NCBI GenBank assembly: GCA_038878695.1
Contig: JAVZVD010000001.1
Location: 62,001-126,000, forward strand
Direction of reading: 5' to 3'
DNA length: 64,000 bases
Source: Fervidicoccaceae archaeon
GTDB lineage: Archaea > Thermoproteota > Thermoprotei_A > Sulfolobales > Fervidicoccaceae
The position numbers were made by a program, and so were the translations under genes. The notes under the pieces were generated by a model, which worked only from the letters and a program-made list of their open reading frames with translations, made no database searches and was not told where the DNA came from. Positions 37,443 through 63,590 of this stretch are shown here, piece after piece. Within the stretch, counting starts at the first letter, position 1. Each line of letters starts with the position of its first letter.

Positions 37443-37883
37443 TCAGGCTTTGTAGATCCCCGTTACGACGGCGGGACACACTCTCTTGACGCCGGGCAGC
37501 TCGGAGATCTTCTTGGTGATCGAAGAGAGCTCCTCGAAGTCCCTCGCCCAAATGATCGCTATTATCGCGTGGTCTCCGCTCGTCATCGCGAGGTACTTGA
37601 CGCAATCTATTGACTTCAGCTCCTCGAGCACTCCTACGAGGCGCTCGGGCTCGACGTCTATGCCCGTTATCGAGACGACCTCGTAGCCTAGCTTCCGCGG
37701 GTCGACTCTGACCGTGTAACCCTCTATGACGCCGAGCCTCTCGAGCTTCCTCACCCTCTTGAGCACGGCCACGTCGCTCAAGCCTAGATCGCGCGCTATT
37801 CTAGAGAAGGGGGTTCTGGAGTCTCTCAAAAGAGTCTCTATTATCTTCGCGTCTATTTCGTCGACCTTAGCTCTCCTGGCCAA
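37443..37883 (-). CDS. Lrp/AsnC-family transcription regulator
   Basis: About 146 aa. N-terminal helix-turn-helix: VDEIDAKIIETLLRDSRTPFSRIARDLGLSD split by the usual loop. The C-terminal half is a ligand-binding RAM domain (VVSITGIDVEPERL onward, ending CPAVVTGIYKA). I prefer the TTG at 37881-37883, which follows GAGGAGGATT at six bases; the GTG at 37916 adds eleven residues. A perfect inverted repeat lies between the likely TATA box and the start of transcription, suggesting that the protein represses its own gene. Confidence 0.88.
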   Translation of the reverse strand: MARRAKVDEIDAKIIETLLRDSRTPFSRIARDLGLSDVAVLKRVRKLERLGVIEGYTVRVDPRKLGYEVVSITGIDVEPERLVGVLEELKSIDCVKYLAMTSGDHAIIAIIWARDFEELSSITKKISELPGVKRVCPAVVTGIYKA

Positions 37884-41619: not shown

Positions 41620-43002
41620 TCAAGCGGATATTTTCCTGTAGATGAAGATCAGGGCGACTACAGCGATTATCAGCGCTATTACGCCCACGGCCACGGCGGC
41701 TTGAGCCAGGCCCTTGGCCCCTTTCAGCTCGCCGACGCTGGCGCTCAGGCTGCTCACGGTCTTCTGGAGATCGCCGACGGTCTTCTGGAGATCCGAGACC
41801 GTCCCGCTGAGGTTCTGCAGAGCGTCGACGCTCTTAGCCAGCGAGCTCACCTGCCCGGAGATCGCGTCGACCTTGGACTTTAGGTCGGCTATCGAGGCGT
41901 TGATGGCTTTGGCCTGCTCTACCCCGGCGGCCTGCAGCGCGTTTACCGTGGCGTTGAGGGCCGCTAGGCTCTCGGAGAGGGCCTCGAGTTGGACCTGGAG
42001 AGAGGCTATGGTCGCGTTGAGAGCCACGATCTGAGCCACCGTGGGGGCGGGGGTCAGCACGATGAAGTCGGCCTTGGCCTCGGCCGACTCCGCCGCCCTC
42101 GTCGCCTCGACCGACACGGTGTAGATGCTGTCGACGCCGGTGACCGGCAGGCTCGCCGTGCCTAGGTACGCCTTATCGGCGGCGCTGTAGGCTAGGTCGA
42201 TCGATATCGGCGGGAGCCCAGCGGCCTCTCTTATAGGGCTGGTCAAGTAGGCCTTGGCCGTCGCGTCCCCGATCGGGGTCCCTCCGTACGTCACGACGGC
42301 CATTATCGTCAGCTTATCGCCCTCTCTCGCCACTCCGGCTAGAGGCTTCCCGTCCTTCAGCAGAGTTATCGAGGCGATCTCCAGCCTGGGCTTCTCGAGC
42401 GTCAAGACCACGCTGAGCGTGGCCGGGAGAGCGTCGACCTTCACGGTCTTGCTGACGCTGACGTAGCCGGGGGCGCTGGCCGTCACGACGTAAGTCCCGA
42501 TCTCCTTCAGCTCTACGGAGAACCCGCCATCTGCTCCGCTGATCGCGGAGGCCACGAGGATCCCGTCCCTCGTGACCGTTATCGTCGCTCCCGCTATCGG
42601 ATTCCCGGCCGCGTCGACGACATTGCCTCTCAGCGTGGCGAAGGGGGTGGCGAACTCGACGCTGAAGCTGACCTCTTCTCCCGTGGCCGTGTCCTTGACC
42701 GTTACCTTGTAAGTTCCCAAAGGCACCGTGGCTGTCGGCGTCGTCGGGAACCTCATCACGTCCTTGGCGAAGGCGCCGTCGGCTCCGGCGGTCACTTGGT
42801 CTAACGCGACGAGGCCCGTCGGGCCCTCGACGACTATCGAGACTATGGCGTTGGGCGTGGCCGCGCCCGCGACCCTCAAGGTCTCGCCGGGATAGTACGT
42901 TTGCTTGCTCGGGGCGGCCGTGAGGGCCAGAGCGGCGGGGGCTAGCAGCAGAGCCGTCAGAGCCAATAGCGCGATGACTCCTAGCTCTCTCCTCATTACC
43001 AT
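41620..43002 (-). CDS. S-layer stalk protein (SlaB-like) with coiled coil and C-terminal membrane anchor
   Basis: 460 aa. Signal peptide with a hydrophobic core (GVIALLALTALLLAPAALA). Then an Ig-like domain, a carboxypeptidase-regulatory-like domain (about 123-200, LRGNVVDAAGNPIAGATITV), and another beta domain. A long coiled coil follows from about residue 320 to 430, with heptad-like repeats such as SDLQKTVGDLQKTVSSLSAS. A membrane helix near 435-457 leads into the short basic end YRKISA. This is the layout of SlaB, the stalk that holds the lattice protein above the membrane. Several Asn-x-Ser/Thr sequons are present. ATG start behind GAGGTGCGAGGAGG. Downstream of and in the same direction as the lattice protein. 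Confidence 0.82.
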   Translation of the reverse strand: MVMRRELGVIALLALTALLLAPAALALTAAPSKQTYYPGETLRVAGAATPNAIVSIVVEGPTGLVALDQVTAGADGAFAKDVMRFPTTPTATVPLGTYKVTVKDTATGEEVSFSVEFATPFATLRGNVVDAAGNPIAGATITVTRDGILVASAISGADGGFSVELKEIGTYVVTASAPGYVSVSKTVKVDALPATLSVVLTLEKPRLEIASITLLKDGKPLAGVAREGDKLTIMAVVTYGGTPIGDATAKAYLTSPIREAAGLPPISIDLAYSAADKAYLGTASLPVTGVDSIYTVSVEATRAAESAEAKADFIVLTPAPTVAQIVALNATIASLQVQLEALSESLAALNATVNALQAAGVEQAKAINASIADLKSKVDAISGQVSSLAKSVDALQNLSGTVSDLQKTVGDLQKTVSSLSASVGELKGAKGLAQAAVAVGVIALIIAVVALIFIYRKISA

Positions 43003-43144: not shown

Positions 43145-46100
43145 TCACCCGACCGTTATCGTCAGCTCGAGAGGCTTCTCGGAGAGCGGCGTCTTGGCTG
43201 CGAGGTCCCAGAAGTAGGCGGTCGCGAGGAACGTGCCCTCGGCCGGCGGTATCCAGCCGACGGCCGCGAGCGCGGTCTCGCCAGGCCCTAGCGTGATCCT
43301 CGCGTAGCTGATCCCAATCGGCACGCCGTCGGGCGTCTTGATGAGCAGCACCACGTCGACGGCGACGCTCCTGGTCGTGTCGGCGTTGGTCACGGGCATT
43401 CTGAGCAGCATGGGCTTGCCAGCGGCCGGGGCCGTTGGGGCTCCGGTCACGTCGACGAACGTCACGTTGGCGGGGGCCGGAGGAGTCACGGGCAGGACGG
43501 GCTTGTAGCCCACCTGTATCTCAATGCTGATCTTCTTCTCCTTTCCGTCTGCTCCTATCTTGTCGGTGTAGGTTATCGTGAGCTTGTCTCCCACTCTGAA
43601 CGCCGGCCTGAGGCCTCCGGACTCTATCGACAGCAGCGTGAGCGGGGCTCTGAAGACGCCGGTGTTGGCTCCTGTCTCGACCAGGGTCACCGTGGCGCCC
43701 GCCGGGTCGATGGGGCTCGTTATCCTGACGTCCACGGACTCGATATTCGCGGGGTCTCTGTTGGCGTCGGGATCCCTCACGTATATCACTATGTCCTCCT
43801 TATCGTTGTAGAACGGCTTCTTCGGCTCGACCCAGACCACTCCGTCGTAGGCCACCACCTTGGCCGTGAGCAGTATCGGCGCGACCTTGCCGTCGGCTCC
43901 GACCTCGTCGAGGTATCTGAGCACGATCGTGTCGGGCACCGTCACATCGAGCCTTTTCCCGTCCGTGACCGTGAGGTTCAGAGCCAGCGTCGCGTTGAAG
44001 AGCCCAGGCTTGCCCGGCACGGCGCTCAGAGTGTTGATCCATTCCTCGCTGATCCCGCTCCTCACGTAGATCTCGTAATCTTTGCTCAGAGTCAGCGTGC
44101 CCTTCTCCCAATACACGATGAGGTCGGGGTCGTACAGATAGACTCCGACCTTGGTGAACGGGGAGAGCTCCGCGAGCCTCACGTCGGCTGTGCCGAGCCA
44201 CACGTCGGCCGTGGTTGACTTGACGCTCACCGAGGCCTCGAGCTCGGCGCTGCGCTTGGCGGTGACCGAGGTGGCCGCCGTGTACCCGTCGGTGTAGCTG
44301 AACTTTATCTTCTGACCGGCCCTCACATTGCTGAGATCGTCGAAGCCCACTCTCAGGGTCTTCTCGAAGACGCCGGTGTTCTTGCCCGTCTCCTTGAGCG
44401 TTAGCGTCCCGAGGAACTTACCGTCCACGGTGACGTCCACCTCGATTTCGTTCACGGCGCCGCTGTCTTTGTTGGCGTCGGGCTCCACAACCGTCACCTT
44501 GATGTAGTCTCCCATCGCGACGGTCGTCGCGTTGACTCTGAGCTCGGCCGTGCTGGGGGCTATCGTCGCCTCGGCCTTGTACGTGGTGCCCTCGTAGTCG
44601 TACGCCGCCGTCAGCTTGGCGCCCGTGGCCTCGTAGACCTTTATGCCTAGTAGATCCGTTAGATTGACCGTCGCGGTCCCTTTGAAGACGCCGGTGTCGA
44701 CGTCCGTCTCCGTGAGCTCGATATCGGAGCCGACCACTAGCGATGTGCCGTTCCACAGCGTCAGGTTCAGCTGCGTCAGTTTGATTTTATCTATCACGCC
44801 GGGATTCACGTTCTCGTACGGGTTGTTGACCGTTATTATGACTTCGAAGACTCCATCGTTCGGCATCGGGTAGGTCGCTCTGTCGAGGCTCACGGTCACG
44901 GCCGGGATCGTCACGGTCACGGTGGCCGAGGCCGTCGCGTTGGTGTAGGGGTCGTACCACTTGAACACGACCTTGCTGCCGTCCTTCAGGGTCTCGTTGA
45001 GCACGGACAAGTCGAAGGTGGCCTTGAAGACTCCTGGGCTCACCTCGTCGAAGAACAGGAAGAAAGTCTTCGTGGCGTTCGTGGGCTTGCCGTCGACCGT
45101 GACGGTCAGATTGCCCCTGGCTGGCGTGCCGATGCCGCAGTCCTTGAGGATCGTGTTAGGCTGGATCGTCTGGCCGAAGCTGTCCTTCACGTCGTCGCCC
45201 TCGTCGTTGAGGTCTCTATCGATCAAGGTCAGCGTGACCTTGCCCTTCGGCAGGACCGTCGCCGGCTCGGCCGTCAGAGTCGGCGCGTAGGAGGTCATCG
45301 AGACGACTACCTCGGAGGTCTTCTTGCCCTCGTCCTCCGAGGGGTCGACGTACGTCACGTTGAGCTTGGCCGGGCGGTCGGCGCTCGAGAAGTTGACGTA
45401 TATCTTGGAGTCGGTCACATCGGCTCCGCTCGTGCGTAGCGCGAGCGGCACCTTCCCCGAGAACTCGCCGGTGTTGTCGCCCGTCTCCTTGAGATTCACG
45501 GTGAGGGGGCCTATTGTCACGTACGCGCTCCCGTTCCACACCAGCAGGGTGACGTTGACGTTGAGGGAGTCTTTTTTGCTCGTGTCGATGTTCATGTCGG
45601 GATCGCTCACCCTTATGAGGAGCTCGGTCTCGGTGCTGACCACGTCGGTCGACGCGGGCCTCGTTATCAGGCCGGGGTAGGACTTGAAGGAGAACTCGGC
45701 CTCAACGGTCTCCCGCGTCTCATTGAGGAACTTCAACTTCACGGACTTGAGCGGCACGGCGTCGAGCGTGAAGTTGGTCAGGTTCAGGACTTTGTATTCC
45801 GCGCCGGCCACGTCATAAGTGGTTTTCCAGCGACCCGTGATGCCGAGACTGCTCAGAACAGAGGTCAGCGTATCAATGATATCTTCTTCCAGCATTATGC
45901 TCCCGCGGAACCTGGCGCTGTTCGCGTCGGTCTCGCTGAGCTCGATGGTGAGGGTGGACAGGCTCGTGTCATCGGGGCGGACTCTGCCGTCCAGGTACAC
46001 GAGGCTTACCGAGAACTCCGCGATGATCGTGTCTTTCTTCGTCGGGTCCCTGTTGTAGTCCTGGTCGTACACCTCGATGTATATCGCCGTGTTGTTGAAC

Positions 46101-46627
46101 GGAGGCACCACGGCCCTGTCGAGGGAGAGCGTGGCGATCGTCTCCTCCACTTTCACGTCTACGTAGACTCTCCCTCCGGGCCCGTAGTACTCGAACGTCA
46201 GCTTCGTCCCTCCCGGAGCCGAGAGGTTGTAGAGCGCGTCGGTGAGATTGCGTTCAGGCAGCAATCTGACGTTGATGCCCTCGGTGGTGTTGACCGCGGG
46301 CACGCTCACTGTTGTATCATTGATGAAGAAGTACCCGTAGAATATGCCGCTCGTTCCGACCTCCCTGAGCAGCACCGCTCCATCGGGCAGGTGAGCCGTC
46401 GGGAGGGGCGTGCCGTTGGCGTATATGGTGACGGTCGCGTTCCTGGCGCCCCTCATGCTCGGGTCAACTACTTTGACCTCGAGCCACGACAGGTTCCATA
46501 TCCTGCCGCCGTGGCGATCCGCCGACGTCTCTATGGTCGGGGCCTCGGCTCTGGCGGTCGGCACGACGGCTATCGGCAGAATCAGCAGAGCGACGAGGAG
46601 GATCGATAGAGCTTTGCGATTTTCCAT
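43145..46627 (-). CDS. Large S-layer lattice protein (SlaA-like) with repeated domains
   Basis: About 1160 aa secreted protein. Signal peptide ALSILLVALLILPIAVVPTA then ARAEA. No C-terminal anchor, so it needs the stalk protein. At least six beta domains repeat two signatures: an acidic loop like VSDPDMNID, YDQDYNRDP, VVEPDANKD and VRDPDANRDP, and 30-50 residues on a strand like KETGKNTGVF, KETGDNTGEF, TETDVDTGVF and VETGANTGVF. The acidic loops may bind calcium (inference). Many Asn-x-Ser/Thr sequons suggest heavy glycosylation. ATG 46625-46627 is preceded by GAGAGGTGCGG and a very strong TATA. It has no evident similarity by eye to Staphylothermus tetrabrachion. Confidence 0.82.
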   Translation of the reverse strand: MENRKALSILLVALLILPIAVVPTARAEAPTIETSADRHGGRIWNLSWLEVKVVDPSMRGARNATVTIYANGTPLPTAHLPDGAVLLREVGTSGIFYGYFFINDTTVSVPAVNTTEGINVRLLPERNLTDALYNLSAPGGTKLTFEYYGPGGRVYVDVKVEETIATLSLDRAVVPPFNNTAIYIEVYDQDYNRDPTKKDTIIAEFSVSLVYLDGRVRPDDTSLSTLTIELSETDANSARFRGSIMLEEDIIDTLTSVLSSLGITGRWKTTYDVAGAEYKVLNLTNFTLDAVPLKSVKLKFLNETRETVEAEFSFKSYPGLITRPASTDVVSTETELLIRVSDPDMNIDTSKKDSLNVNVTLLVWNGSAYVTIGPLTVNLKETGDNTGEFSGKVPLALRTSGADVTDSKIYVNFSSADRPAKLNVTYVDPSEDEGKKTSEVVVSMTSYAPTLTAEPATVLPKGKVTLTLIDRDLNDEGDDVKDSFGQTIQPNTILKDCGIGTPARGNLTVTVDGKPTNATKTFFLFFDEVSPGVFKATFDLSVLNETLKDGSKVVFKWYDPYTNATASATVTVTIPAVTVSLDRATYPMPNDGVFEVIITVNNPYENVNPGVIDKIKLTQLNLTLWNGTSLVVGSDIELTETDVDTGVFKGTATVNLTDLLGIKVYEATGAKLTAAYDYEGTTYKAEATIAPSTAELRVNATTVAMGDYIKVTVVEPDANKDSGAVNEIEVDVTVDGKFLGTLTLKETGKNTGVFEKTLRVGFDDLSNVRAGQKIKFSYTDGYTAATSVTAKRSAELEASVSVKSTTADVWLGTADVRLAELSPFTKVGVYLYDPDLIVYWEKGTLTLSKDYEIYVRSGISEEWINTLSAVPGKPGLFNATLALNLTVTDGKRLDVTVPDTIVLRYLDEVGADGKVAPILLTAKVVAYDGVVWVEPKKPFYNDKEDIVIYVRDPDANRDPANIESVDVRITSPIDPAGATVTLVETGANTGVFRAPLTLLSIESGGLRPAFRVGDKLTITYTDKIGADGKEKKISIEIQVGYKPVLPVTPPAPANVTFVDVTGAPTAPAAGKPMLLRMPVTNADTTRSVAVDVVLLIKTPDGVPIGISYARITLGPGETALAAVGWIPPAEGTFLATAYFWDLAAKTPLSEKPLELTITVG

Positions 46628-46679
46628 GACCTTATCCGCACCTCTCACCCTAGCGTCGAGCCGGAGCTCTGGGGAGCTC

Positions 46680-46688
46680 GATATATAA
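46680..46688 (-). promoter_or_regulatory. Strong TATA box of the S-layer gene
   Basis: GGTTATATATCG on minus. Predicted start near 46659 and a leader of about 30 nt ending in GAGAGGTGCGG. Expected for one of the most expressed genes of the cell. Confidence 0.7.
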
Positions 46689-46868
46689 CCGGTGCGGCGA
46701 CAATTGTATACAGAGCTCCGTCGGGCTCGGCCGAGCCGGGAGCGGAGGTCGCTCGGGCGGATCGAGAGACCCGAAACGGAGAAGAGCGCCCCCTCGGGAC
46801 GATCCCCTCGGGTTTGCGAGTAGTCCGCCTGGAGTCGACCTCAGGCGACTTCAGGTCGGCTTGGAGCG

Positions 46869-46900
46869 AATTCGATGCGACATCGATGTCGCATCGAATT
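46869..46900. repeat. Perfect 32-bp palindrome A
   Basis: Half-site AATTCGATGCGACATC followed without spacer by its exact reverse complement. The centre is CATCGATG. Confidence 0.95.
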
Positions 46901-46979
46901 TCCCGGAACTCGACTCGAGATTGACCCGAATTCGAGCCGAGTCCCCCCGAAGCTCCGAGCGATTTCGCCCGAATTTCGG

Positions 46980-47011
46980 CGGAATTTCCCCGAGATCTCG
47001 GGGAAATTCCG
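46980..47011. repeat. Perfect 32-bp palindrome B
   Basis: Half-site CGGAATTTCCCCGAGA followed by its exact reverse complement, centre GAGATCTC. Same length as palindrome A, 79 bp away, but a different sequence apart from the AATT-type core. Confidence 0.95.
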
Positions 47012-47057
47012 AGAAATCTCCCGGGAAATCCTCGAAATCCGACTGGCCGGGCGCTAA

Positions 47058-47126
47058 CGTTCGCTCAGCGAACGGTGGCGGGCCGCTAGCCTTCGCTCGC
47101 GTTCCTGAGCGAACGTCAGCGCGAAG
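47058..47126. repeat. Two hairpins sharing AGCGAACG
   Basis: CGTTCGCT (47058-47065), one base, AGCGAACG (47067-47074). Then CTTCGC (47091-47096) pairs with GCGAAG (47121-47126), enclosing CGTTC/GAACG (47100-47104 and 47110-47114). Confidence 0.75.
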
Positions 47127-47549
47127 CAATTAATTAGAAGAAACCGAAGGAGTCGGCTCGCGGAGCTAGGATCCGCCGGGCTCTCCGCCGATCGATGGAG
47201 GAGGATCCTCCGAACGACTCCGCGCAAGACGCGCGCAAAGAGCGGATCCTCCGAGGCGCAGCCCACCCTGCTGTCGTGAGGTGAACCGCGCCTCGGGGTC
47301 GAGTTGATCGCCGGGTTAGCCTGACCCGGGGGGTCCTCGCTCCCCCTCCCCTCGATGAGCGAGGGGATCCTCTCGATAGGATGGGCTTCGGCTCTCGGCG
47401 ATGCTCGCCTCTCTCGCGGGCCCGGTCTCGGCTCGAGCGAAATGGGCCGACCCGCCGCGATCGCGCGGTCCAATCTCTACTCATTCGCGAGTGGCAACCA
47501 ATATTTTGGCGATTCTAAAAACGCGGGCCCCCGAGGAGGTCGAGGGCTC

Positions 47550-48134
47550 TTGGCCCCTCGCGCCGAGAGGCCCGGCGCGGCGGCGGAGATCGCCTGCGCG
47601 GCCTCTCTCTCTGCTCTAGCCGTCGCGCTCCACGCGGTCAAGGTCCCCTTCCCTCTCATGCCAGCTCTCAAGTACGATCTGGCCGGAGTCCCCGTGGCCC
47701 TCCTGGCCCTGGCTTCCGTCAGGCTCTCGCTGGCCTCGCTCGTCGCGCTTTTCGTCGGGGTCCTGGCCCTCGGGGGGGACGCGGTGGGGGCCTCCATGAA
47801 GGCTCTGGCCGAGCTGACCACCGCTCTCCCGCTGGCTCTCGGCCGCAGGCTCCTCTCTAGGCCCAACCCCCGGCTCGGGGGGGTCCTCTCCGTCGCGCTC
47901 GCCACCGCGTCGAGGACTGGGATCATGTGCTTGGCCAACTACTTCGTGCTGCCCAGGTGGGCGCTCGCCGTGGGGTGGGCCTCGAGCCCCGAGGCGGCTC
48001 GAGAGCTCATGGTAGCGGCCATGCCCTTCGTCGCTATATTCAACGCGAGCCTGGCGGCTCCCGTGGCGGCTCTGAGCCTGGGGGCGTTCAGGGCGCTCGC
48101 GAGGGCCGGTGTGAGGCCTTGGGCCTCGCTCTGA
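47550..48134 (+). CDS. ECF transporter substrate-binding membrane protein (RibU-like S component)
   Basis: About 194 aa, five to six hydrophobic helices. HAVKVPFPLMPALKYDLAGV matches the first-loop pattern of RibU-type S components (FPxxPxLKxDxxDxP). The specificity is suggested, not proven, to be a flavin-like vitamin. TTG 47550 is chosen because GGAGGT lies nine bases ahead and the TATA box CTAAAAACG precedes it at the right distance; upstream open codons belong to the gene-free region. The stop lies 16 nt inside the ATPase gene. Confidence 0.72.
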   Translation: MAPRAERPGAAAEIACAASLSALAVALHAVKVPFPLMPALKYDLAGVPVALLALASVRLSLASLVALFVGVLALGGDAVGASMKALAELTTALPLALGRRLLSRPNPRLGGVLSVALATASRTGIMCLANYFVLPRWALAVGWASSPEAARELMVAAMPFVAIFNASLAAPVAALSLGAFRALARAGVRPWASL

Positions 48135-49453
48135 GAGTCGAGGGCCTCTGGTTCAGGTACCCCGGGGGCCCGTGGGTTCTCAGAGGAGCGTCGATGGCCC
48201 TCGGCGAGGGCGAGATAGCGCTGATCGCCGGGGGCAGCGGCTCCGGGAAGACCACGCTGGCCAGGGCGATAACGGGCTCCGGGGTCGAGGTCTACGGGGG
48301 GGAGATGAGGGGGGTGGTCGAGGTGGGGGGAGTCAATCCCCTCGCCCATCGAGGCAGGATATCCGAGCTGGTCCAGGTCGTGAGCCAGAACCCCTGGGCG
48401 CACTTCGCCGAGCACGTGGTGGGGGAGGACCTCCTGGCGTACGCCGAGGAGCTCTACGGGCCGAGCGAGGGGTCGAGGAGGCTCGAGGAGGCCCTGGAGC
48501 TCGTCGGGGCCGAGAGCCTGGTCGACAAGCTGGTCTCGGAGCTCTCGGGGGGTCAGCTGAGGAGAGCCGCCATCGCCAAGGCCCTCCTCAGCGACCCCGA
48601 GCTGCTGATATTGGACGAGCCCATGATGTGGCTCGACGAGGAGGGGGAGGCCCAGGTGATCGAGGTCGTCGAGAGGCTCAAGGCATCGGGGAGGTCTGTC
48701 CTGATACTGGAGCACAGATACGCCCCCCTGACGAGGATCGTCGACAGGAGCTACGCAATGGAGGGCGGGAGGATCGAGGAGTTCGAGCCGAGGGTCCCCG
48801 CCGCGAGAGCTCGCGGGCCGCGCGAGCGCCGAGGGCCCGGCGAGGTCGTGCTGAGGGCGAGGGGGCTGAGGTTCAGGTACTCTAGGAGGGGCCCCTGGGT
48901 CCTGGAGGGGGTGGACCTCGACGTCGAGATGGGGGAGCTCGTGGCCGTGTACGGGAGGAACGGCAGCGGGAAGTCCACGCTCTTGAAGCTCCTGGCCGGC
49001 TACCTGAAGCCTACGAGCGGATCCGTGGAGAGGAGGGGGAGGGCGTTCTACGTTCCTCAGATCCCCTATCTCCTCTTCTCCGAGGAGACCGTCGAGGGGG
49101 AGATCGAGGCTCTCTGCCCACCGAGGTCGGAGTGCGCCGAGAGGGGGGCCGAGCTCGCGAGGACTCTGGCGGGCCTAGACGGCCTCGACTCCTCCCCCTT
49201 CTCTTTATCGTGGGGGCAGCAGGTCAGGCTGGCCGTGGCCCTAGCCCTCGCGTCGAGGGCCTCGATACTCCTCATGGACGAGCCCTTCTCGGGCCTCCCC
49301 TACTCAGATAGGCTGGAGCTCTCCTCGATCCTCCGCTCCGCCCCCGCCGCGAAGATAGTCAGCGCCGCGAGCAGGGAGTCCCTCGAGATCCTGGAGCCCG
49401 ATAGAGCCCTAGAGCTGAGCGGGGGGAGGCTGAGGGAGGTCGACCTCGCTTGA
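48119..49453 (+). CDS. ECF transporter ATPase, two ABC domains fused
   Basis: 444 aa. Domain 1: GGSGSGKTT, signature LSGGQLRRAAIAKAL, Walker B LLILDEPMMWLD. Domain 2: GRNGSGKST, signature LSWGQQVRLAVALAL (the Gly-Gly replaced by Trp-Gly), Walker B ILLMDEPFSGL. This is EcfA1 and EcfA2 in one chain. The signature change in domain 2 may make one ATP site weaker. TTG start overlaps the S gene; stop overlaps the T gene as TTGA. Confidence 0.88.
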   Translation: MGLALRVEGLWFRYPGGPWVLRGASMALGEGEIALIAGGSGSGKTTLARAITGSGVEVYGGEMRGVVEVGGVNPLAHRGRISELVQVVSQNPWAHFAEHVVGEDLLAYAEELYGPSEGSRRLEEALELVGAESLVDKLVSELSGGQLRRAAIAKALLSDPELLILDEPMMWLDEEGEAQVIEVVERLKASGRSVLILEHRYAPLTRIVDRSYAMEGGRIEEFEPRVPAARARGPRERRGPGEVVLRARGLRFRYSRRGPWVLEGVDLDVEMGELVAVYGRNGSGKSTLLKLLAGYLKPTSGSVERRGRAFYVPQIPYLLFSEETVEGEIEALCPPRSECAERGAELARTLAGLDGLDSSPFSLSWGQQVRLAVALALASRASILLMDEPFSGLPYSDRLELSSILRSAPAAKIVSAASRESLEILEPDRALELSGGRLREVDLA

Positions 49454-61931: not shown

Positions 61932-63590
61932 TTGGGGAGCGGGGGATCGGCTCCGCGGAGGCCCTCCACTGCTCGCGCAATCGCGGGCCACGCGGGGAGG
62001 ATCCTTCTCATAGCCTCATCCACCCAGCTCGCGCCCGGAATCCTGGCTCTCTCTCTGGACCTGCTCGAGGCTCCCGGCTCTAGGGAATCTATCACCGCTC
62101 TAGCGTTCGTTGCGCTCTCGAGCTTTGTCGTCGCGTTCGTTGGGGCTCTCCGCTCGCTGAGGTCTTCGATCGCGTGCGCTCTGTTCTTATCGTGGGTCAT
62201 TGGGGCGAGCCTGTCCGGGGCTCTCTCGCGCGTCTCTACGTGCTTCCTAGCGGTGGGGACTTCAACTCTGCTCGCCGGATTAACGCTGACGCGTCTCGAG
62301 CGAGGGAGACGGGAGCCCGGCACGAGAGAGGCTATTCTCGTGGTGGTCCTCACCTGGTTTCTCGTTCCACCGATATCCGCGCTGCCCGCGTGGCTAGCGC
62401 TGAGGATGCCCTTCGTCGATCTCTGGTTCGAGAGCGTGAGCGGCTTCACGACCACGGGTTTCACAATCTTCGATGGAGGCGTGGACCACGCCGGAGTTCG
62501 CGTTCCGAGAGTCGAGGAGCTTCACCCGGCTCTGATCCTCTGGAGAGCCTTCGCCCAGTGGGTCGGTGGGCTCGGAATAGTAGTGCTAAGCCTAGTCCTC
62601 TTCACGCGACCCGGTCTGGCCGTCGTCAGGCTCGCCGAAGCCGAGACGCGGTTGGAGCGCATAGGGCTGAGCGTGAGGGCCACGCTGAGGGAGATGCTCA
62701 AGCTCTACGCCGTAATAACGGTGATAGCTCTGCTCGCTCTGACGGCCGCCGGATTGAGAGGCCTCGACTCTCTCGCGCTGGCCCTCGCCGGAGTGGCCAC
62801 GGGAGGTTTCTCGACGAGTTCTAACAGCGTTCAGTCCATCGCCTCCGCCGAGGTCCTGAGCGCGCTGATCATTGCAATGGTGCTCGGGGCGAGCAACTTC
62901 AACGACCTTCACAGAGCGGTGAGCGAGCGCAGGAGTCCCCTGGCGTCTCCGGAGCTTAAGGCCATGGCAGTTATAATAGCGCTCTGGACTCCGGTCGGCG
63001 CCGCGATCCTGTGGAGCCACGGTTGGGGGAGCATGTGGGACTCGCTAGAGGCCTCGCTCTTTCACGTCGTGAGCGCTCTCACCACAACGGGCTTCCAATC
63101 AATGGACCTGAGCTCCGCTCCTGTGCCCTTCAAGGCCCTGCTCCTCCCCCTCATGATCTCGGGAGGCAGCGTTTTCTCGACTGCTGGCGGGATCAAGCTG
63201 ATGCGAGTTCTGATCCTAGCGCGCGCGGCACTCGAAGAGGCCGCCGGGCTCGAGAGGCCGCCGGGCCTCCTCAGGTCAATGAGGCTCGGCCGCTACGAAT
63301 TCGCCGAGAGCGAGATCATGAGAGCCGCCGTGGTGCTGGCACTCTATCTCGGGCTCGCGCTGGCCGGCTACATCTACGCGGTGATCAGACTCGCGGAGAG
63401 CGCCCCGACCTTCGACTTGCTCTTCGACGTGGTGAGCGCCTCGTGCAACGTGGGATTGAGCGCTGGCGTGATCGGCTCGGGTCTGCCGGTCGACCTGAAG
63501 GTGTTGCTCGGGCTGATCTTCACCGCCGGGAGGCTCGAGGTCCTCCCTCTGCTGTACATAGCGGGCTCCGCGACTAGGAGGAGGATATGA
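61932..63590 (+). CDS. trkH: TrkH-type potassium transporter membrane subunit
   Basis: 552 aa, about eleven helices. The four selectivity-filter loops are visible: ESVSGFTTTGFTIFDGGV, GVATGGFSTSSNS, VSALTTTGFQSMDL and VSASCNVGLSAGVI; each keeps the central Gly. GRLEVLPLLYI near the C-terminus is a TrkH family end motif. It needs a TrkA-like RCK partner, not found in this window. TTG start; the first 30 residues are basic and not conserved, so a later start is possible. Confidence 0.92.
   Translation: MGSGGSAPRRPSTARAIAGHAGRILLIASSTQLAPGILALSLDLLEAPGSRESITALAFVALSSFVVAFVGALRSLRSSIACALFLSWVIGASLSGALSRVSTCFLAVGTSTLLAGLTLTRLERGRREPGTREAILVVVLTWFLVPPISALPAWLALRMPFVDLWFESVSGFTTTGFTIFDGGVDHAGVRVPRVEELHPALILWRAFAQWVGGLGIVVLSLVLFTRPGLAVVRLAEAETRLERIGLSVRATLREMLKLYAVITVIALLALTAAGLRGLDSLALALAGVATGGFSTSSNSVQSIASAEVLSALIIAMVLGASNFNDLHRAVSERRSPLASPELKAMAVIIALWTPVGAAILWSHGWGSMWDSLEASLFHVVSALTTTGFQSMDLSSAPVPFKALLLPLMISGGSVFSTAGGIKLMRVLILARAALEEAAGLERPPGLLRSMRLGRYEFAESEIMRAAVVLALYLGLALAGYIYAVIRLAESAPTFDLLFDVVSASCNVGLSAGVIGSGLPVDLKVLLGLIFTAGRLEVLPLLYIAGSATRRRI

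Follow-up and report, generated by a model that had tools for sequence, protein, structure and literature searches.

Two perfect 32-bp palindromes and a helically phased box array upstream of the S-layer gene of a Fervidicoccaceae archaeon: a possible protein-docking region

The archaeal regulator BarR, an Lrp-type octamer, acts in a divergent intergenic region where the DNA wraps the octamer and the sites lie 2-3 helix turns apart; its boxes are 15-bp semi-palindromic motifs with spacers of 15-17 or 27-29 bp (PMC10201364). Palindromes can also be produced by mutation: template switching creates perfect reverse-complement repeats in one step and also repairs existing stems (PMC8794818). We compared with these systems an intergenic block of inverted repeats that contains two perfect palindromes, P1 and P2. 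Like the operators of Sa-BarR, St-BarR and Ah-BarR, the block has, between two divergent genes, a control region with multiple semi-palindromic boxes that have A/T cores and keep phase with the helix. Unlike those operators, it has boxes of 8-11 bp that are GAA/TTC-flanked and follow a ~10.5-bp pitch, i.e. neither the 15-bp boxes nor the 15-17 or 27-29-bp spacers of BarR are seen in the array, and an Lrp-type regulator is only a candidate. Because box length and spacing differ, we do not file the block as a BarR-type member. Phased A-tract curved DNA offers a second likeness, as short A/T runs recur at ~10.5 bp and the predicted curvature is unusual, although the tracts here are only 4-5 bp, are flanked by G+C and are set around a perfect dyad. 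The block also resembles quasi-palindromes and other template-switch palindromes in having a perfect core with diverged outer arms, in being single-copy and in not being conserved, although a lattice of boxes at helix pitch is not predicted for them. Finally, it shares intergenic inverted repeats with REP/BIME elements and MITEs, which are dispersed and multicopy, whereas each repeat here occurs once in the host genome.

The window is the whole stretch of 64,000 nucleotides that was analysed (positions 62,001 to 126,000 of contig C1), and its coordinates are used unless another locus is named. Genes were called with a simple codon model. The palindromes lie in an intergenic region of ~0.85-1.0 kb between the divergent slaA gene and an ECF-type transporter operon (Table 1), and are therefore upstream of both promoters. 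The original prediction placed them in a gene-free region next to an S-layer gene, and both points stood. The region is intergenic, between the slaA start and the next plus-strand gene; two frames that run over the palindromes (46851-47129, minus strand, and 46861-47133, plus strand) gave no family match and were taken as chance. The slaA product is 42-45% identical to family members, a profile of four of which matches the solved S-layer protein 8c8k (E 1.3e-23), and the gene that follows matches SlaB. On the other side, sequence and gene order indicate that the first gene of the divergent operon probably encodes the membrane component of an ECF-type transporter. Among named relatives, a Desulfurococcales MAG is the nearest.

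Table 1. Features of the palindrome region and neighbouring genes (window coordinates)
Feature	Position	Strand	Details
slaB-like S-layer anchor gene	41620-43002	-	NF040788, E 6.8e-40, under the model's strict cut-off
slaA-like S-layer protein gene	43145-46648	-	start ~46627/46648; ATG at 46627 likelier
Likely slaA TATA box	46679-46690	-	GGTTATATATCG; from sequence and position after the conserved box in relatives
Conserved S-layer promoter box	46696-46712	-	TGTATACA-N2-TGTMGYC; outside the palindrome block; shared with relatives
P1	46869-46900	no strand	perfect 32-bp palindrome AATTCGATGCGACATC, GATGTCGCATCGAATT; 16/16 pairs; spacer-free
Weaker inverted repeat between P1 and P2	46905-46945	no strand	16-17 predicted pairs
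A/T-cored mini-palindrome array	46959-47042	no strand	mean pitch ~10.5 bp; P2 is its dyad
Imperfect inverted repeat around P2	46961-47030	no strand	35-nt arms, 77% complementary
P2	46980-47011	no strand	perfect 32-bp palindrome CGGAATTTCCCCGAGA, TCTCGGGGAAATTCCG; 16/16 pairs; spacer-free
P3 nested hairpin	47051-47122	no strand	18-bp outer arms, one mismatch, inner stem
P4 hairpin	47251-47296	no strand	17-nt arms, 3 mismatches
Divergent operon gene 1	47658-48134	+	start uncertain, 47355-47658
Two-domain ABC ATPase, ECF type	47927-49453	+	next after divergent operon gene 1

P1 and P2 proved to be exactly as first described, i.e. perfect, spacer-free and 79 bp apart, with unrelated sequences. The core of P1 consists of two tandem 11-bp boxes (GATGCGACATC/GATGTCGCATC) with flanks CGAATT and GAATTT. 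A random-sequence model gives an expectation of 4e-5 palindromes with arms of at least 16 per 64-kb window, and the longest palindrome in 2 Mb simulated with a 5th-order Markov model was 22 bp, which bears out the claim that chance cannot explain two and supports the conclusion that P1 and P2 are beyond chance. They are the two longest palindromes in 464 kb of the host genome, the third being 28 bp; this sample, drawn as stretches and covering 42% of the 1.11-Mb assembly of five contigs, is the basis of all the genome-wide ranks. A called gene elsewhere holds a perfect 28-bp palindrome (L046 6344-6371). P1 and P2 lie deep within a 586-kb contig, away from its ends, and a search of the 1.11-Mb assembly for their half-sites, allowing up to 2 mismatches, found no further copy. 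A dispersed repeat is not supported, as both the half-sites and the whole region are single-copy in the genome, and a mobile element, virus or plasmid was rejected since the exact palindromes are absent from IMG/VR and no phage or plasmid match was found.

The two palindromes belong to a larger block of inverted repeats that spans about 46690-47500. Its region ranks first of 111 intergenic regions for inverted-repeat content, with 23.7% of bases in local inverted 8-mers vs 5.3% expected, and of the five strongest repeats in the 464-kb sample, three cluster within about 250 bp upstream of slaA. A general trait of the host's intergenic DNA is ruled out as the cause, because the typical intergenic region has no such excess (median z -0.18). 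As a single strand the block is more stable than shuffled sequence (z -8.75 for the minus strand and -6.98 for the plus strand), and a separate single-strand fold test against shuffles gave z -7.4. The nested hairpin that had been placed at 47058-47126 is real, but its span needed correction (P3 in Table 1). Elsewhere in the sample, a repeat with GCAAAATAACAAAGAACTAAAAG occurs ~40 times in intergenic DNA and is likely a CRISPR array, its probable site being the long gap at L050 16593-20000 (G000:C3 about 116593-120000).

P2 differs from P1 in its surroundings. It forms the core of a longer imperfect inverted repeat, in which all eight mismatches lie outside the 32-bp core, in the outer 19 of the 35 pairs, and its dyad (46995.5) is also that of an array of short boxes, each with an A/T tract at the middle of a mini-palindrome. 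The words of the array are CGATTTCG, CCGAATTTCGG, GGAATTTCC, GAGATCTC, GGAAATTCC, GAGAAATCTC, GGAAATCC and TCGAAATCCGA, of which GAGATCTC is central, and the box centres, picked from a longer list with half-pitch centres between tracts left out, are at ~46963.5, 46974, 46985, 46995.5, 47006, 47015.5, 47027.5 and 47037. The AATTTC-word repeats of the original prediction are therefore real, and more regular than it had said. The flanks of the array tracts are complementary at 16 of 21 positions, whereas other tracts average 0.95 of 3. The two halves of the array share their tract words and differ in their spacers. Helical phasing was scored from the recurrence of A/T trinucleotides with a period of 9.8-11.4 bp, a measure chosen after the words had been seen. 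By this score the array came first among the 462,131 windows of the 464-kb sample, with a power of 2.71 against 1.78 for the runner-up, and none of 20,000 plain and none of 20,000 arm-mirrored shuffles reached it. Once mirror symmetry is granted, tract spacing by itself departs only marginally from chance (1151 of 20,000 placements). Predicted curvature falls in the top 0.8% of sampled windows, using a wedge model with approximate parameters. A constant-pitch array of symmetric boxes is near-palindromic about every box, which partly explains P2. The equal length of the palindromes had been read as a sign of common function, which these results do not favour: P2 is the core of a longer repeat and of the box array, P1 is isolated, and the 111 bp between their dyads amount to about 10.6 turns, so that the dyads are not on the same helix face.

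The block was found in none of the seven other genomes of the family, where the best matches were about 20 bp with E above 0.1, and in the nearest relative the region upstream of slaA is short and has no palindrome. The palindromes are thus not kept in this comparison, which covers other genera only, and slaA lacks here the conservation that usually marks a regulatory site, which counts against a regulatory reading. Conservation was found instead in a different element, TGTATACA-N2-TGTMGYC, which adjoins the likely TATA box just upstream. It has eight matches in 117 genomes of the order, and its reversed pattern has none. Five of the eight precede an S-layer-type gene, in several families of the order: the site in the window and those at L014 ~2976, L016 ~8007, L004 1408 and in L086, where the gene was judged by a look at its N terminus only. 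The remaining three, one of them a second match in the host genome, fall inside or next to unrelated genes and could have arisen by chance. The motif looks like a conserved S-layer promoter element, and it, rather than P1 or P2, appears to be the palindromic element of slaA under long-term selection. A perfect 10-bp inverted repeat (CGGAGCTCTG/CAGAGCTCCG, 46662-46671 and 46711-46720) brackets the TATA box and this motif.

The explanation that we favour, although tentatively, is that the block serves as a lineage-specific platform for protein docking or DNA bending upstream of slaA, and that template-switch correction keeps its arms identical. P1 and P2 would be the most symmetric parts of a cis-element that lies between two divergent promoters, some 170-360 bp upstream of the TATA box of slaA. 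The boxes of the array, being one helix turn apart, would face one side of a slightly curved duplex, and a multimeric, dyad-symmetric DNA-binding protein, e.g. an Lrp-type octamer or a nucleoid protein, would most probably dock along that face. Bending or wrapping of the region by the docked protein might then set the strength of slaA transcription, and perhaps also that of the divergent transporter operon, while the exactness of the arms would probably be upheld by template-switch (quasi-palindrome) correction at replication. The docking platform is supported by the phasing of the array, first among the windows sampled and matched by no shuffle, by the complementary tract flanks, the predicted curvature and the tract words common to both halves, and by the position of the site, which as with BarR is in a divergent region, here ahead of the S-layer gene. 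The family of Lrp-type effector domains has six matches in the host genome, one of which is an Lrp/AsnC-type regulator gene at 37464-37664 (minus strand), ~9 kb from the block. A second intergenic region dense in inverted repeats weakens the docking reading, because the genes on either side of it converge and no promoter would be expected between them; this region (L047 11320-11660; G000:C2 about 171320-171660) has iterated GCTAGC and GGATCC words, and both of its strands fold much better than shuffles. Binding of a symmetric protein and homogenisation of the arms had both been proposed originally and remain the two best explanations; protein binding, its effect on transcription and the correction of the arms are all inferred. 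A more specific version, which we think decidedly unlikely, is a new archaeal control element in which palindromic boxes, one to each helix turn and in mirror order around a perfect 32-bp dyad, would seed a protein filament or wrap on one face of the DNA and so control the S-layer gene.

It is almost as likely, if still somewhat doubtful, that the block has no function and is a by-product of replication. Template switching, which can create and repair perfect stems (PMC8794818), would then have both made and perfected the palindromes, starting from short inverted repeats in intergenic DNA under no constraint. The perfect core of P2 and the abrupt divergence of its outer arms form the pattern that template-switch correction would leave. 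The genome sample has 11 palindromes of at least 20 bp, five of them in called genes, vs 3.0 expected from the 5th-order Markov model, and 380 kb of three relatives has only one, which favours a mutational contribution. The second repeat-dense region, with its different words and convergent genes, and the lack of conservation in the family point the same way; the relatives without the block are none of them close enough to show the ancestral state from which a lineage-specific copy would have arisen. However, neutral template switching gives no reason to expect an A/T-cored box at every helix turn or the clustering of the strongest repeats just upstream of slaA, and most intergenic regions of the host have no excess of inverted repeats.

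The hairpins, including P1-P4, might alternatively act in a structured minus-strand RNA, either a long slaA leader or a separate small RNA, which we consider unlikely. The minus strand does fold better than shuffles and better than the plus strand. In addition, P2, P3 and P4 have six wobble-type mismatches in their arms, every one of them A.C in the DNA and none G.T, so that they would become G.U pairs only in a minus-strand RNA and none would do so in a plus-strand RNA; this applies to the single P3 mismatch, A.C on the plus strand, and to all three in P4. However, this bias is weak, being six of six, and could be caused by strand-biased C-to-T change, and the block matches no Rfam family. 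The slaA TATA box and the conserved promoter motif are also downstream of the hairpins. The slaA leader would then be just some 30 nt long, and the main transcript of the gene would lack the hairpins.

Two further explanations fared worse. That the palindromes act by extruding cruciforms is very improbable: they are perfect and spacer-free, and single-stranded folding is far more stable than in shuffles, but spacer-free palindromes this short require strong negative supercoiling for extrusion, and hyperthermophiles with reverse gyrase generally keep their DNA relaxed to positively supercoiled. A replication origin or a centromere-like partition site, the latter raised by the original prediction as a plasmid-like site, is hardly credible, because although boxes iterated with a spacing of about one helix turn recall plasmid partition iterons, the orc1/cdc6 genes that would adjoin a crenarchaeal origin are at C1:48966 and C1:520138 (the nearest about 59 kb from the block at C1:108,869-109,300), the only match to the ParA/SegA-type genes that would adjoin a partition site is a ParA-type one at C1:61241, about 48 kb away, there is no clear turning point in GC skew, and phage and plasmid collections hold no similar sequence.

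The S-layer genes of these archaea commonly rank with the most highly expressed ones, yet, to our knowledge, their control regions have been little studied. If the block arose neutrally, it is a clean natural case of template-switch correction, with two adjacent perfect palindromes in a hyperthermophile. If instead it is a docking or bending site, it would provide a testable handle on the control of the S-layer gene. In both cases the contrast with the conserved promoter box shows which of the slaA palindromes appears to be under long-term selection.
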